Assembly (NCBI GenBank): GCA_963575645.1
Contig: OY754467.1
Span: 4,278,001 to 4,342,000, forward strand
Direction: 5' to 3'
Length of the DNA stretch: 64,000 nucleotides
DNA from: Xanthostigma xanthostigma
Taxonomy: Eukaryota > Arthropoda > Insecta > Raphidioptera > Raphidiidae
Part shown: piece after piece, positions 4,252 to 61,600 of the stretch
Layout: each line of letters starts with the position of its first letter
Numbering within the stretch: the stretch's first letter is position 1
Made by a program: the position numbers and the translations under genes
The notes under the pieces: model-generated
What the model was told of the DNA's origin: nothing
Databases searched by the model: none
Seen by the model: only the letters and a program-made list of their open reading frames with translations

Positions 4252-4980
4252 AGCGGTCCCGTCCGGTTTCACCCGAGTACAGAAGAACGAATGGGGAAGG
4301 GAGGGAATGAGTACACACATTCATCTTAGTTTACCGAGATGAATGTTGTGTCCAAATTTCATGATGATCGGAGTTACCGATCAAAAGTTTTTATTGATAA
4401 AAAGCACTAATTATACTTTTTTATAAGTATAGATAATAAATTTCTTTTAAATCAATAATTACTGGATATAATAAAATATAATAAATATTTAATTGTAAAC
4501 ACTGTAAGAAAATTATTTTTATATAGGTACCTATAGTTGTAACAGTTTTCAAATGAGCTATTAATTAGATTTAATAAAATTAAAATAAATTTAAATGTAA
4601 GAAAGTAATGTAGAAAATAAAAAAAAAATTAAAAATATATTCGCCCAACGTGGGGCTCGAACCCACGACCCTGATATAGAGTCGCGTGCTCTACCGACTG
4701 AGCTAGCCGGGATTGTGAATGAACGACGTTAATATTGGAATATTAATTAGTTAGGGCATTTCACCTGAATAGACGCTAATTTTGAGGTACATTTTGCAAC
4801 ATTTTTCATTGATGCTCTGCTTCTATTGGTTGTAGCGTGATATTATAATATAGCCTATAGCCTTCCTCGATAAATGGGCTATCCAACAAAACAATTTTTT
4901 TTCAATTCGAACCAGTAGTTCCTGAGATCAGCGCGTTCAACCAAACAAACAAACAAACTCTTCAGCTTTATAGATTATAA
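4252..4980 (+). mobile_element. RTE-type retroelement tail interrupted by a tRNA-like block
   Basis: The left part begins AGCGGTCCCGTCCGGTTTCACCC, an idiom common at the start of insect RTE-type non-coding tails. The right part ends with CAGTAGTTCCTGAGATCAGC followed by CAAACAAACAAACTCTTCAG and a TTTATAGATTATAATAATA tail, typical of RTE/BovB-like 3' ends as I remember them. No reverse transcriptase frame is present. A minus-strand tRNA-Lys-like sequence sits in the middle (4642-4712). Confidence 0.6.
4642..4712 (-). pseudogene. tRNA-Lys-derived pseudogene
   Basis: Read on the minus strand it has an intact pol III A box (TAGCTCAGTCGG), a near-consensus B box (GGTTCGAGCCC) and an acceptor arm close to tRNA-Lys (CCCGGC against GTTGGGC). 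It is 71 nt, about two shorter than normal. The loss is in the anticodon arm, whose stem (CGCGA against ATCAG) no longer pairs. The first base also mismatches. The triplet in the CTT position reads CTA or TAT depending on alignment. It is probably part of the surrounding retroelement rather than a working tRNA gene. Confidence 0.7.
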
Positions 4981-37259: not shown

Positions 37260-38009
37260 TTTTTTTTCGAAAAAAACATGCCGTCAGAGAGTAAATAAAT
37301 TATAGAGATAATGACATTAAACATGTTAGCCCAATTGACCGACAATTAAATTGAAAGAAATAACATTTTGAAAACTTCTCGTTTACTTGCTTGATTTTAT
37401 AGATATTATACCGTTTATGGCGGCCCGTGTTTTTTGCGTCCGTTGTTTGCTCTATAGTCGCCGTGTTTTTCTGCTTTTTGCTTTAGTGATTTTGATTGTT
37501 TCGACTTTGACTACAACATAAAAATATTTGTGCATGACTTGAATACTCTATATTATTACAAGATACTCCCATTTTTTACAAAGGTACAATTTATTATGGC
37601 TTTGAAATATGGTTACTTTATTTTTATTCCATCAGTCATCACATTAAAAATAAAGTCGAATAGATTCATGCTTTCATTGTACCGCAATGTTTTTTGTAAA
37701 ACTCAGAACCTGACTTGTTGAGCGTCTATATAATTTTCAATCTTTAACAAACATGTACAGTCGTTAAATTGTGAAATGTTTTGTTTCCTACCCTGGAACT
37801 GGCTCTGCCAAGTTGGGCAGGAAAACTTACATATAATGACATTTTGTAAAAATAATAATATGTAAAAGTAAGTTAATAAATTCAAATTCAAATATATTTA
37901 TTGGATCCCAACACAATCGTTGTAACCGATACTTCGGGGGAAGGAGGGCTAATTCGTCGAGAAAAAATATAAAGAGTTCCGGTGCCTTTGCCCTGCATAG
38001 ATAAAGACT
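37260..38009. other. Unassigned flank of the LTR element
   Basis: CCTACCCTGGAACTGG and GCCAAGTTGGGCAGGAAAACT near 37790 are shared with 24140 and probably come from a retroelement 3' end. The host target GACT (38006-38009) ends this stretch. Confidence 0.45.
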
Positions 38010-38544
38010 TGTAACGATTCAAAACTTTTATATTACATTGTACGTAGTTTAGAAGTAATAATTAGAATTGGGTATTTACTGTACTTGTCTATTTGTTTTG
38101 TCACGGCGCGTGTCAATTTTGGTTTTGGCATGTTGAACGACGCAGTGAAATAAAGAAAAAAATATGTTTTTTGTCTGAAAAAAGGCAGTAGGTTTTAAAA
38201 GGTTGAAATAGAATGTATTAAAATAAGCTGTGAAAAAGTGTTGAAATATTTCCTTTAAACCACATCAGGGAGAAACTGGAGTACTTGGTGATCTACCGAT
38301 CCAAATTTCTTTTTGTATGTGTCGTTTAATTGATTATTTTTCACTTTGTCAATTCCAATCACATTAACATATCAGAAATTTTCTGTGTGTACATTCTAAG
38401 ATATCTTGTTAACAACAATTTTATTATAAAACATTCAAAATAAATATTTTAAATTGTTTATTAATTTTATTAAAATTTATTTTAAATTATATTACGAGAC
38501 GATTACGTGAGCTTATCCGAAAAAGTCCAAAGCTAATCGTTTCA
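38010..38544 (+). repeat. 5' LTR
   Basis: It is 535 bp, TG...CA. I read the two LTRs side by side and found no difference. It contains GAAATAAAG, a poly(A)-signal-like block, and an AT-rich right half. Confidence 0.9.
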
Positions 38545-38546
38545 TT

Positions 38547-38564
38547 TGGCGCCCGAAAAAAGAC
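38547..38564 (+). other. Primer-binding site, tRNA-Lys type
   Basis: TGGCGCCCGAAAAAAGAC begins two bases after the 5' LTR. It matches the complement of the tRNA-Lys(UUU) 3' end over the first eleven bases and the last three, with mismatches between. Confidence 0.8.
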
Positions 38565-38706
38565 TGGACCTTGGAAATTATCCAGACTAACACCAAGTGA
38601 CATTTTGGACATTTTAATAATAATATCAATAATTATTATTAAATCAATATCAATCAATTAACTATAAATCGATGTGTTTATATATTATAAAATTTAAGTT
38701 ATTAAA

Positions 38707-39558
38707 ATGACTACAAAAAGTGAAAAAAAAAGATCGTGCTAAACAAATTCAGGACAAATACCAGCAAGTACTAAGTAAATGATTGGTTAAGAGATGAGGA
38801 TAATAAATATTGTGTCGATTGCGATACAAAAGGTCCTCGTTGGGCATCGTGGAACATAGGTATGTTTTTATGTATAAGTTGTGCAGGAATACATAGAAAT
38901 CTCGACGTTCATATTTTGAAAGTAAAATCAGTGAATCTGGATACATGGACATATATTATCTCAACAGATGGGCAACAGTCGTGTTTGGGCTGTTTACGAA
39001 GCAAATTTGCCCGACCATTTCTGGCGTTCTCAGAACGATTCTAGTTTAGAGTCATTTGTGCGCGCGAAATATGAACATAAATAGTATATCGCCAGAGAAT
39101 GGTTGCCTCCGGCACTGCCAAAAGTAAATTGGGATAAAGAAGACGACAAATCCAGTGTCGAAAACGCGAAAGTTCAAAGCGAAGAAGAAAGTTTCTTTAA
39201 TCAACCGACTTCGACCGAAAAAGAAGAGACGAAATTAACTGAAGATAGCATATTGGCATTATACGGCAATGCTCCGATGCAACAAACCACATTTCAAGCA
39301 AATTACGCTCCGACAGGGGCAATTCCTGGCTTTCAAGTTCAGCAACAAGCATTTCAAGTTCCAGTTTATCCGACAAACTTGCAAGCTTCCTCGCAACCGC
39401 AGCAAGCTTTTCAAAACCAATCGACATTTGTTTCGCCGCCTCAGAATCAATTTGTGATGGCTCAACAAACGATGCAATCTCAAAACTTCGCTCCTAATAC
39501 GGGCGCAGCAGTGCCTAATCCCTTTTACGCTAATCAACAAGCCCTGCAACAACAGTAA
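38707..39558 (+). pseudogene. Retrocopy of SMAP-type ArfGAP (stromal membrane-associated protein)
   Basis: In cells SMAP proteins stimulate GTP hydrolysis by Arf GTPases in clathrin-coated membrane traffic. The copy starts at an ATG (38707, MTTKSEK). The C4 zinc finger is visible as CVDC (38811-38822) and CISC (38871-38882), spaced C-x2-C-x16-C-x2-C, followed by CAGIHRNL with the catalytic arginine. The downstream VNWDKE and the Q/P-rich tail (QQAFQVP, NPFYANQQ) also fit SMAP, and the tail is open to a stop at 39556-39558. The frame is broken by an extra A in a run near 38723-38731, stops and a shift around 38780-38787, another shift near 38950-38962 and a TAG at 39082. No introns are present. 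About 480 bp of presumed 3' UTR follow before the polypurine tract. Confidence 0.88.
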
Positions 39559-40032
39559 CTAAGTAGATAGTCAATTGTTTGTGTAATTGTGCATTTTTAT
39601 CGGGTGCATAAAGAATTTAAAGCGGAATTATGGACAGTCATAGTTCATAATTAAATTTTACTATGACGCGCTATGACTGTGCATAAATTGTGATATGATT
39701 TAGTTAAATTTTGTCTTTGAACATCTAAATGCACAGATCTTTATTTTATACTTTGCAGTAAATATAAACACAATTGTTTTTTTTTATAGTTGAAAATTCT
39801 TCGAACATTTTATATTGTTTTCAGTTGAAAAGATTCATTAACTAATTTTTTTTTAATTGTTTTGAAATTTTTATGTTTTTTTTTAATATTTTATATAGTA
39901 CGTGTAAACGAAGATTAGTATTTTATTCAATGTGGTAAATCTTCGTAAAATTCCAGGTAGTACATAATTCTCATTTATTTAAGCGGTTCATCCTCCATGC
40001 ATTTCTTTATTCTAAAATTGTTCGTATGAACC

Positions 40033-40045
40033 GCTGGGGGGGCTA
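40033..40045 (+). other. Polypurine tract and preceding hairpin
   Basis: GCTGGGGGGGCTA ends directly at the 3' LTR, the usual place for the plus-strand primer. Just upstream AGCGGTTCA (39981) and TGAACCGCT (40027) are inverted copies, so the tract closes a stem of about 10 bp. Confidence 0.75.
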
Positions 40046-40580
40046 TGTAACGATTCAAAACTTTTATATTACATTGTACGTAGTTTAGAAGTAATAATTA
40101 GAATTGGGTATTTACTGTACTTGTCTATTTGTTTTGTCACGGCGCGTGTCAATTTTGGTTTTGGCATGTTGAACGACGCAGTGAAATAAAGAAAAAAATA
40201 TGTTTTTTGTCTGAAAAAAGGCAGTAGGTTTTAAAAGGTTGAAATAGAATGTATTAAAATAAGCTGTGAAAAAGTGTTGAAATATTTCCTTTAAACCACA
40301 TCAGGGAGAAACTGGAGTACTTGGTGATCTACCGATCCAAATTTCTTTTTGTATGTGTCGTTTAATTGATTATTTTTCACTTTGTCAATTCCAATCACAT
40401 TAACATATCAGAAATTTTCTGTGTGTACATTCTAAGATATCTTGTTAACAACAATTTTATTATAAAACATTCAAAATAAATATTTTAAATTGTTTATTAA
40501 TTTTATTAAAATTTATTTTAAATTATATTACGAGACGATTACGTGAGCTTATCCGAAAAAGTCCAAAGCTAATCGTTTCA
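40046..40580 (+). repeat. 3' LTR
   Basis: It is 535 bp and matches the 5' LTR without a visible difference. It is followed directly by the GACT duplication. Confidence 0.9.
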
Positions 40581-40599
40581 GACTGGACTATAACATATA

Positions 40600-41219
40600 C
40601 AGTGTGGTCACTTAAGTGTGCAACATATGGGAAAATTTTTAATTAAATGCACAACCAAAATACAAATATTGCCAAAAGTTGGTGCATGTCCGATAATCAT
40701 TTTAAGTTCTCTTAGAATTGTTGAAACTCAAACAGCATACAGGGTGTTTAATTTCGTTGCAACAAACATAAAGTTTGTGATTCCATAAAAAATTAAAAAT
40801 TAATTTTACAAATATGCCTGAATTTGAACAAAGTTATGCGAAATTGATTCGATTTTGAATAATTTATTAGTGTGTTTAAGGTAAGTATAAAAAAAAAATT
40901 TCAAAAAAATTATAATAATGGTTTTTCAAAAAAAAATTTTTTTTCTTAGAAGGCCATGTTTTGGTATTTGGGCATAACTTTTAATTCTAAACAGCTTTTT
41001 CTTATAACATTTCGCTGAATTTTTTTAAATAAGGGCACTTTACTCTTGTACAATTTTTATGTTTTTTTACCCACCCCTGTATGCGGTTTGTGTTTCAACA
41101 ATTCTAAGAGCACCTAAAATGATTATCGGACATGCACCAACTTTTGGCAATATTTGTATTTTGGTTGTGCATTTAATTAAAAATTTTCCCATATGTTGCA
41201 CACTTAAGCGACCACACTG
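40600..41219. mobile_element. Tc1/mariner-type MITE with nested second element
   Basis: The ends CAGTGTGGTCACTTAAG and CTTAAGCGACCACACTG are inverted copies flanked by TA. The arms run about 140 bp, through GCACAACCAAAATACAAATA and CCGATAATCATTTTA. At their inner edge (about 40741-41081) a second pair of ends (TA-CAGGGTG and CACCCCTG-TA) marks another TA-flanked insertion exactly at the loop. Neither element encodes a transposase. Confidence 0.8.
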
Positions 41220-41639
41220 TATATAAAAATTGCGAGAGAAGAGGAAAAACCGACGCGTCGCGACATTGACGCGGACGTCGGTCGTGTGTTTACATTTTCC
41301 ATCGTTCCTACGTATCTATATACGCGCACAAAAAGGAGTTGGAGGATGTATCAAATGCAACTGTATAAACAGTGTTTGTCATATTATCATATTTCTATAA
41401 TATGTAACAATAAAATATCAATGTACAATATCTAGACTATATAATTATAATAATAATAATAATGCGTTTAACGTCCGTTTCTCGACTTTATGTCATAACA
41501 GACACCATTCGCACAATTACTATTTTCCATCTATTACACTTCCCGCTATTTTCTACATTTTTAAACTTCAACTTAATTAATAGCAATGGACAAATGAAGG
41601 AATTTTTAGGACATTAGGATAAGGTAAGAAAATTTCGAG
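41220..41639. other. Unassigned sequence
   Basis: I see no gene. A small CpG-rich patch (CGACGCGTCGCGACATTGAC) lies near 41252. Confidence 0.4.
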
Positions 41640-41880
41640 CATAGGAGTTGGACAGGTAATCGGCCATGCCCTCGAATAATGAACCATCTCGATATTTATC
41701 TGGTATTATTGAGGGAAACTATGGAAAACCTCAACAAAATGGCCGGTACAGGAATTACCGTTTCTCGGCGAGAGGCAGCAGGAAAAAGTACCAGTCACAT
41801 CTGCTCACGCCGGGATTCGAACCCAGTACCTCCCGAATGCGAGTCTAGTGCTTTCACCACTACGCTACACCGCTCGGCTA
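41640..41880 (-). mobile_element. tRNA-derived SINE
   Basis: On the minus strand the head (41878-41808) has a perfect B box GGTTCGAATCC and an A box TAGCGTAGTGG, the internal pol III promoter. The anticodon position reads CGC in an alanine-like context, but the acceptor stem does not pair well. The body continues down to about 41660. The ORFs at 41666-41900 are read through its complement and are not genes. A diverged relative lies at 34395-34553. Confidence 0.75.
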
Positions 41881-58600: not shown

Positions 58601-61600
58601 CTCGCAGTAAACAGTGATATTTCGCTCCAAAACCTATTTTTATATATTGAAACGTTTCAAAAATTACAAAACTGAGCATAAATATAATATAAAAGCTTAG
58701 AACATTTTACATTGTCATATTGGCATCAATGCTTGTCAACCTTGATGCCAAATTGACAATATAAAATGTTCTAAGCCTTTACATTATATTTATGCTCAAT
58801 TTTGTAATTTTTGAAACGTTTCAGTATAAAAATAGGTTTTGGAGCGAAATATCACTGTTTACTGTGAGTTTTGTCGTTTTTCTCAATAAAATAATTAATA
58901 TTTTTGAATCTTGCGCGCTTTTTACGGCGTTTTCCACGTACAAAATGGCTTCTAAAAGGTACAGGAGGCGCTAGTGTATCCGCAATCTAATAAATATATA
59001 TATATCTATGGTATATATATATATATATATATATATACAGAGTTAGATGATCCAGTTTCGGACGTATAGCGCAAATTAACGAATTTCGATTTTATGGGGC
59101 TCCAAGACAATTTTGACTTTGTAATTACCTTTCCTCAAAAAGATCTCAGTTCATTTCTATCTTCTTCCTTTAACATGTATGTATGTGTGTATGTATGTTT
59201 AGTATGTAGTTTTCGTTTAAAATTTTGCCTTGATTGCTCTACGGAACAATATGATTTATTCAGGGTTACCTAAAAAGTTTGGGTATGGCGCGTACTGCTG
59301 AAGTGAAGCGAGATGCGCGAATTGGCGAAGCCGAGGCCAGGTGTGAAGCGCAAATTAAAGAGGCGATCGCTGAAGAGCAAAGAATGGCGTCTCGCTTCTT
59401 GAACGATACCGAAATAGCGAAAGCGCAACGCGATTTCGAGCTTAAAAAAGCCGCGTACGACGTCGAAGTACAAACGAAAAAAGCCGAGGCCGAACTAGCT
59501 TACGAGCTGCAAGCGGCTAAGACGAGACAAAGAATCAAAGAAGAACAAATGCAAATCAAGGTCGTGGAACGTTCACAAGAAATCGCTGTACAAGAACAGG
59601 AAGTTCAAAGGCGAGAAAGAGAACTCGAGGCTACAGTGCGCCGTCCAGCTGAAGCGGAGAAGTTTAAATTAGAAAAGCTAGCTGAAGCTAATCGCACGCG
59701 TGTTATTATTGAAGCTGAGGCAGAGGCGGAGGCTCTCAGAGTTAAAGGTGAAGCGGAAGCGTTTGCGATTGAAGCTAAGGCCAAAGCTGAAGCTGAACAA
59801 ATGGCTAAGAAAGCTGAAGCGTTCAAAGAATACAAGGAAGCTGCCATGATCGATATGCTTTTGGACACATTACCAAAGGTTAATCTGACAAATCTTTACT
59901 ATTACACTCTTATACAGTAGAACCTCGATTATTCGAGTCGCAATTATCCGAGCTCTGGATTAACCGAGTCAATCTAATGCGAGGTACGCGCGTCTATAAT
60001 CCGGATTATTCGAGCCACTAAAGGCCCAATATCCGTATTAACCGAGTTTCTAAAATATAGTATGTAATGTACATATTTCCATTTAAAATTGTTGGGGTAA
60101 AAAACAGTTGTGTGGTTTTAAGAAACCACGACGTAAGTGAAACTTTTATTGGATAGTAGGCGTTGGATTGTAGACACTTATCCATCACGATTAATTATAA
60201 ACAGCAATATTCACATGAATACACGAATAAAAACATGTAAACACTGTACAGCACTTGCCCGCATGACAGACTGTCTATGTGTTATACATACTACACGGTC
60301 AGCTGATGCTAACCATGGGCGGCGCCATATTGGCCTTGGCTGCTCTACCGAGCGCCTACTCCGAACGCCTTTCACTTTACCCCTACTCCGCGGCCGCCTG
60401 TAATGCGACATGCAACAGACGGCCAGAAAAATTCGGGGCGATAGAATAAAAGTTTCACTTTAATAAAATAATTTATTAATAAAAATATTTACATGGTAAA
60501 AACGTTTATAAACCGTTTAAAGTACATTTGTGATTATTTTTTTAATGAATAAAAAATAAATCCGGATTATCCGAGTAGGGTGTTCCCCATGTTACCTCGG
60601 ATAATCGGGGTTCTACTGTACATTGGTTTTGCTTTCTCCTTTACGGAGTACATAGGTAAAATTCTTTGTCCAAAATTCGAGTCTGAGTTTTGGGGGTTTA
60701 CGGTTTCAAGTACCTTAAACCCAAAAAAAGTTGTTTTTAAAAACGGTCTGTCTGTCTGTGGATACCAGAAATGAAAAGATTGTGAGTCAAAACCGTGATG
60801 CTAATCGAAAAACTTCCACCTACAGGTGGCAGCCGAAGTGGCAGCTCCGTTATCGCAAGCCAAGAAAATTACGATGGTATCGACTGGCCAGGGTGACGTT
60901 GGCGCAGCAAAACTGACTGGTGAAGTATTCAATATAGTAACCAAGGTGCCGGAACTTGTCAAAACACTCACGGGTGTCGACATTTTGAAGGTGAGTTCAC
61001 AGTAAAAGTGTGGCACTTTGCTTATGTCACGGACATTTTTGGTTGGATGTATTCAGGGCCGCGGCACGACAGGGTGTACAAGAGTCAGTCATCGAAATTC
61101 GTTAATTGTTGTTAGTTTCCGATTATTTTTAAGAAATACTCATTGACTTTTCATTTAAGGAGGTTGAGCCGTTTTACGAAGGTAATGAAAAAAATTTGAA
61201 ATAAAGTTTTTTTAATAGATTTTTTATGACAAAATTTTCTGTAAAAAATCCAAAATCATTAGGAGATTTATAAAGTTAAAAATTAAAAAAAACTTTTACA
61301 TGTAGTCTTATGGAAAATATGTCAACCTAGCATGCAAACGGTACATTTTAATTTTTTGCAAATAACCAAATAATGTCAGCTGTTCCGAAAACTATCTATG
61401 TAAAGCATCGATTTCTTACGCATATGTTAATATTTTTTTAAATTTAATTAGGAGACTTTTAATCAATAAAAAAAATTATTAAACCTTAGCCCTTTTCGAT
61501 TATGGACTTTTATTCTTGACAGTTTTAACAATTTTAACTTAATTTTCAACTTGTTAATTATTTAATTTTAATTTTTATTACTTCTAATTTATTTTTTTAA

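Follow-up and report, generated by a model that had tools for sequence, protein, structure and literature searches.

How does a piece of a cellular ArfGAP gene come to lie between two long terminal repeats (LTRs), and is it still a gene? The question is raised by one locus in a 64,000-nucleotide stretch of Xanthostigma xanthostigma DNA (the window; contig OY754467.1, positions 4,278,001 to 4,342,000), in which all features of the element described below are given in window coordinates on the + strand. Two direct repeats that start with TG and end with CA, i.e., a 5' LTR (38010..38544, TGTAACGATT...AATCGTTTCA, delimited by LTR comparison and by LTR ends recovered genome-wide) and a 3' LTR (40046..40580), are identical at 535 of 535 positions and enclose an interior of 1501 bases. 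The 4-bp target-site duplication GACT is present on both sides (38006..38009 and 40581..40584). Just 3' of the 5' LTR is a primer-binding site (TGGCGCCCG..., 38547..38564) that agrees at 15 of 18 positions with what we take to be the tRNA-Lys(UUU) primer-site string, followed by an AT-rich leader (38565..38706) that may be the element's own or SMAP 5' UTR in origin. A run of seven G (40036..40042), apparent in the sequence and in a junction search, occupies the polypurine-tract position immediately 5' of the 3' LTR. The LTRs, the GACT duplication, the primer site, and the G-rich tract had been described in the first-pass annotation, and all are present.

The gene-like content of the interior is SMAP throughout. 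An ArfGAP stretch is recognized by Pfam (PF01412, E 4.2e-24), and the best solved-structure relatives are SMAP1B (E 1.2e-29) and a SMAP1-like protein (E 2.8e-28). An ATG stands at the SMAP start position (38707..38709), its frame soon breaking in the window copy; the N-terminal part of the ArfGAP domain, identified by profile and structure matches, occupies an 89-aa frame (38775..39041) and is out of frame afterwards, and a C-terminal SMAP frame of 157 aa plus TAA, identified from frames and protein matches, covers 39085..39558. The non-coding 3' region (39559..40035), in which nothing matches the 3' end of intact SMAP, is likely the parent element's own sequence. All five ATG-started open reading frames of at least 60 aa between 37000 and 41600, on either strand, lie within the SMAP stretch, and no gag or pol coding capacity was found in these frames or in those of a subset of copies, as had been proposed at first. 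The element is a non-autonomous LTR retrotransposon. TRIMs are defined as very short and LARDs by an interior above 4 kb, and an LTR of 535 with an interior of 1501 bases places the SMAP element in neither class.

Other features of the window were recorded alongside. A 150-nt inverted repeat (40595..41224, arms 97% complementary, 330 nt between them) begins 10 bp beyond the target duplication and is likely a MITE-like element, weak tRNA-like matches on the - strand (41808..41869 and 4642..4712) are likely tRNA-derived SINEs or pseudogenes, and a Glu/Ala/Lys-rich frame of 221 aa (59255..59920), without match in a Pfam search, presumably resembles the coiled part of flotillin.

Is the window copy a singular accident? 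An LTR that occurred nowhere else would have refuted the initial reading; the LTR is, on the contrary, widespread in the genome searched (623 Mb, 28 contigs). The best 40 of 394 candidates scored for the LTR query are all 98-100% identical, and 338 LTR ends were recovered genome-wide at up to three mismatches, the reversed control pattern giving 0. Exact LTR/primer-site junctions were found 33 times and G-tract/LTR junctions 49 times (two mismatches allowed), and since the reversed controls again gave 0, such recurrence excludes chance as the origin of the LTR frame. Set against these two junction counts, the number of LTR ends implies that most LTRs of the family are probably solo; 4-bp duplications flank six of the seven single LTRs examined. 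A protein search of the genome with the C-terminal SMAP frame (all 59 candidates scored) yielded 58 matches, nine of them at three host-type SMAP loci on contig C10, while the other 49 correspond to 45 element copies. The LTR-SMAP-LTR copies elsewhere, for which the first-pass annotation had proposed to look, are therefore real: the genome holds 45 SMAP-carrying copies, some of them truncated.

Thirty-seven of the 45 copies were spanned; L061-L063 are partial or partly covered, L064-L066 were covered in short pieces, and those at C3:13342044 and C3:40038427 are counted among the 45 and lie outside the spanned set. Both LTRs exceed 500 nt, each as one uninterrupted piece, in 35 of the spanned copies, the other two having incomplete 3' LTRs. 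Five make up two tandem arrays, with GACA and GTGC as the repeated outer flanks, namely L010 (C5:23661525-23667147), which reads LTR-interior-LTR-interior-LTR with two elements, and L015 (C6:31541877-31549342), a triple array in which neighbours have LTRs in common; each has a single target duplication around the whole. Each of the remaining 30 is solitary and has a perfect 4-bp target duplication; the duplications are of many different sequences, and the copies are spread over contigs C1 to C11. A segmental duplication or an assembly artefact of a single locus would explain why some interiors are identical (L023 and the window copy), but we regard it as practically excluded, as it is refuted by these separate target duplications, matched within each copy and varied among them, and is contradicted by the 0 matches of the control patterns in the junction and LTR-end searches.

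Where did the SMAP sequence come from? An ArfGAP family search of the genome scored all 70 candidates and gave 60 matches, among them exons of other ArfGAP genes, and a SMAP protein search gave 94 matches from 106 candidates, all scored. Besides element copies, these searches recovered an intact SMAP locus, locus C, whose open frame of 446 aa, uninterrupted by stops, runs from C10:36187049 onward, as well as two partial, degenerate loci, A (C10:788374-794915) and B (C10:11585628-11603791). By sequence comparison, the intact gene at locus C is the likely parent of the captured sequence. It lies on another contig; a parental SMAP locus at the place of the element would have told against the initial reading. 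Three other sites considered as parent loci (C5:6247450, C5:32842526, and C6:27769656) turned out to be further element copies. Loci A and B are 97.6% alike across the 340 bases compared, have a frameshift in common, and are likely duplicates of one another. A family LTR ends at C10:11604798-11604820 (+), ca. 1.0 kb downstream of the last locus B SMAP match (C10:11603791), a proximity that is rare by chance (338 LTR ends in 623 Mb) and was noticed post hoc.

Before the linker edge, nine substitutions are fixed between the element and locus C, of which five are synonymous and the other four nonsynonymous. Three of the nine fixed bases, read by eye, are also present at loci A and B, so that the source allele may differ from the present-day locus C gene. 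Ten further apparent differences at the linker edge are, we infer, a product of alignment across a deletion. Element residues 16-146 match C10:36187688-36188080 at 89% over 131 codons, and residues 1-30 match C10:36187313-36187399 at 69%; because these are separated segments of locus C, about 110 linker codons are absent from the element, their place being near 39130-39145 by comparison with intact SMAP. The open frame of locus C ends at 36188386, which is 102 codons beyond the end of the firm match, and through a weak match (54%, E 5.9e-4) the last residues of the element reach 36188296, which leaves 30 codons up to the frame end. The final 12 codons of locus C together with 150 bases of its 3' UTR, queried as 191 bases, had no match in the 32 aligned interiors (an alignment from which exact duplicates and partial interiors had been removed beforehand; 29 of the 32 rows differ). 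The SMAP protein P0005 aligns as far as the final QQQ of the element; for the 25 residues with which P0005 ends, the element offers no convincing counterpart further downstream. Against a public protein set, the C-terminal frame gave five matches among 98 candidates, with 42-71% identity over 22-41% of the query.

At locus C, the sequence reads ...TTGTTTTAAG and then GTCCTCGTTGGG, forming an acceptor-like boundary after which the exon starts (...TTTTAAG), and the elements read ...GATACAAAAGGTCCTCGTTGGG, uninterrupted at that position. On the basis of this one boundary, the SMAP insert is likely intron-free and derived from a spliced mRNA. The initial picture of a whole intronless SMAP copy with its 3' UTR is thus upheld as regards processing and corrected as regards completeness: the linker codons, the coding end, and the 3' UTR are absent. 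Similarly, the intron-containing parental gene that was expected is recovered as an intact locus with an acceptor-like boundary, and is the likely source. The same intron-free insert could have been made by LINE-type machinery, i.e., as a SMAP retrocopy inside an LTR element that lost its gag-pol thereafter, with no need for template switching by an LTR element. LINE-made retrocopies are common. Such a copy normally starts from the 3' end of the mRNA, however, and here the parental 3' end and 3' UTR are missing, the firm match stopping within the coding region; nor does a poly(A) tract follow the SMAP frame in the window copy. We therefore think a LINE origin unlikely, with a small chance of being right.

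With locus C as reference, all 32 aligned interiors have the same two lesions, an 11-nt frameshifting deletion after the Trp-Thr codons (38951..38952 in the window copy) and a TAG (39082..39084) where intact SMAP has AAG (Lys). As both are found in 32 of 32 interiors, SMAP had probably been inactivated before the expansion of the family, and the copies would go back to a SMAP sequence that was broken by then. Could the SMAP part nevertheless be a working gene carried by the element, comparable to the host genes in oncogenic retroviruses or crocodilian ERVs? No break interrupts the 157-aa C-terminal frame in 24 of the 32 copies, one of the 24 having no stop codon. In addition, the ArfGAP profile is matched up to position 115 at ten genomic sites, of which four contain a single TAG and six a single TGA plus a single TAG. 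This frame is nonetheless altered in nine of the 32, eight through premature stops or frameshifts and one (L039) through loss of the stop codon, and the profile match past the common frameshift runs outside the true SMAP frame. Among copies, 23 synonymous changes were observed in the C-terminal frame against 17.9 expected when the same mutation types are placed at random; the excess is non-significant (P = 0.09), yet its direction is that of constraint. Stops are as many as expected (5 observed, 6.1 expected). An overall pN/pS of 0.55 had suggested weak constraint and proved non-significant with mutation types kept, and no single type dominates the mutation spectrum of private changes. The intact and constrained host frame of a functional transduced gene is thus not what the copies display. 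Together with the lesions common to all interiors, this makes a working gene very improbable, and the SMAP part appears to be carried along as a passenger and not to work as a protein gene.

How recent is the spread? In the 30 stand-alone copies, the two LTRs differ by no substitution in 17 cases, by one in seven, and by two in two, and single copies have 5, 7, 8, and 11; together, these LTR pairs have 42 substitutions in 16,069 sites, from which many insertions appear to be recent. Divergence among interiors is larger than between LTR pairs (mean 2.4%, maximum 4.2%), and the interiors cluster in several supported groups, with five of 26 inner branches at 95% or above. Given that the interiors differ more than the LTR pairs and fall into several groups, more than one lineage seems to have been active recently. 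Two main primer-site versions exist side by side in the family, as seen in the first 20 bases of the interiors: scored against the tRNA-Lys(UUU) string that we assume, six of 32 interiors agree at 18 of 18 positions, one at 17, and about 24-25, the window copy included, at 15.

One copy bears on how such elements are copied. The interior of L023 (C7:3249042-3250542) is identical to that of the window copy over 1501 bases, while ten alignment positions distinguish their LTRs (nine substitutions plus a gap); the 5' LTR of L023 has an additional 6-nt gap, and its target duplication, ATCT, is its own. Judging from this mosaic, L023 is likely a template-switch recombinant, a strand switch during reverse transcription being the simplest reading, although gene conversion would also fit. 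A template-switch origin of L023 suggests that recombination of the kind required for capture happens within the SMAP-element family.

A family without gag or pol is likely copied by another element's proteins, and the first-pass annotation had proposed to look for an autonomous element with the same LTRs. None was found through the 33 LTR/primer-site and 49 G-tract/LTR junctions, among the best 40 of 55 candidates scored with the 3'-region DNA query (all 40 being SMAP copies), or among 100 listed of the 338 LTR ends, where all nine close same-strand pairs are 2,025-2,042 bases apart and none belongs to a longer element. Five G-tract/LTR sites and one primer-site junction are without a detected SMAP match (C1:48383245, C5:16364111, C5:17257303, C6:20893288, C20:36705, and C5:42320403), and these may be truncated copies or the autonomous partner.

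Taken together, we consider it highly probable that this is a non-autonomous LTR family built on a truncated, frame-broken piece of host SMAP, which was likely captured from spliced mRNA by template switching and likely amplified in trans by another element. Template switching was reportedly proposed for LTR-mediated retrocopies in metazoans by Tan et al. in 2016 (Genome Res). In our case, the RNA of an LTR element and a SMAP mRNA would have been packaged in one particle, and reverse transcriptase would have switched from the 3' region of the element into the SMAP coding region and then returned from SMAP into the element's leader. The resulting chimaera would have retained LTRs, primer site, and G-tract and would, for that reason, still have been a usable template, to be copied in trans afterwards by the Gag and Pol of another element. 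What is observed are the many integrations with 4-bp duplications, the common lesions, the solo LTRs, and the two tandem arrays.

Broken as a protein gene, the SMAP part might still act through RNA. Sense or antisense SMAP transcripts of the copies could feed small RNAs that lower the expression of host SMAP, the dispersed recent copies being a self-spreading source of SMAP-like RNA. Long stretches of the element are nearly identical to the SMAP gene and its dispersed copies are many, and the W-linked PxyMasc retrocopies of Plutella xylostella offer a precedent, as far as the available part of that report goes (PMC9674220). Neutral drift of the copies, however, requires no such role, and we give it a slim chance at best. 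If true, a dead mobile gene fragment would tune Arf-dependent vesicle traffic, as a dispersed counterpart of the PxyMasc retrocopies.

The family has little sequence of its own besides LTRs, leader, primer site, 3' region, and purine tract, which suggests that any RNA within the right frame is spreadable. Its copies form a replicated record of capture, gene loss, amplification, likely template-switch recombination, and solo-LTR formation, and they provide a natural case for asking if mobile gene fragments feed back on their source gene. Host genes captured by LTR elements are, to our knowledge, mostly encountered as single retrocopies. A literature search, conducted largely outside subscription journals, found none that reports SMAP within an LTR element. 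Among the best-ranked matches, no title or abstract describes a multi-copy LTR family on one broken host gene. Co-mentions of "stromal membrane-associated protein" with retrotransposons led to two papers that, judging by title and opening of the abstract, map obesity-diabetes in the mouse and review salivary-gland carcinoma, respectively.

Several known systems are nevertheless comparable, here as far as the accessible portions of the respective papers describe them. Bs1 of maize is likewise an LTR element with truncated host gene segments (PMC13317346), but it is a plant element that captured three genes, whereas a single gene gives all gene-like sequence in the interior of the SMAP element. 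The crocodilian ERVs, similarly animal LTR retroelements that captured host mRNA and exist in several copies, carry KIT-ligand or nectin3 in frames described as intact and under purifying selection, with viral domains present (PMC4299795); in the SMAP element, no gag-pol was seen and the captured gene is broken. Pxyfem, the W-linked clusters of PxyMasc retrocopies that give piRNAs in Plutella, also consists of multicopy host-gene retrocopies ascribed to LTR elements, with LTRs that are not identifiable (PMC9674220), while those of the SMAP family are intact and its copies dispersed. LTR-mediated retroposition in metazoans is discussed in several reports (PMC8277862, PMC5408686, and PMC9674220), and the retrocopies concerned (Tan et al. 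2016, Genome Res) resemble ours in placing an intron-free host mRNA in an LTR frame; here, the chimaera itself has become a recently active family of 45 copies, which may set it apart from them. Gene capture by LTR elements is thus known, and what appears to be new, on our limited view of the literature, is that such a family has been built on one dead host gene.
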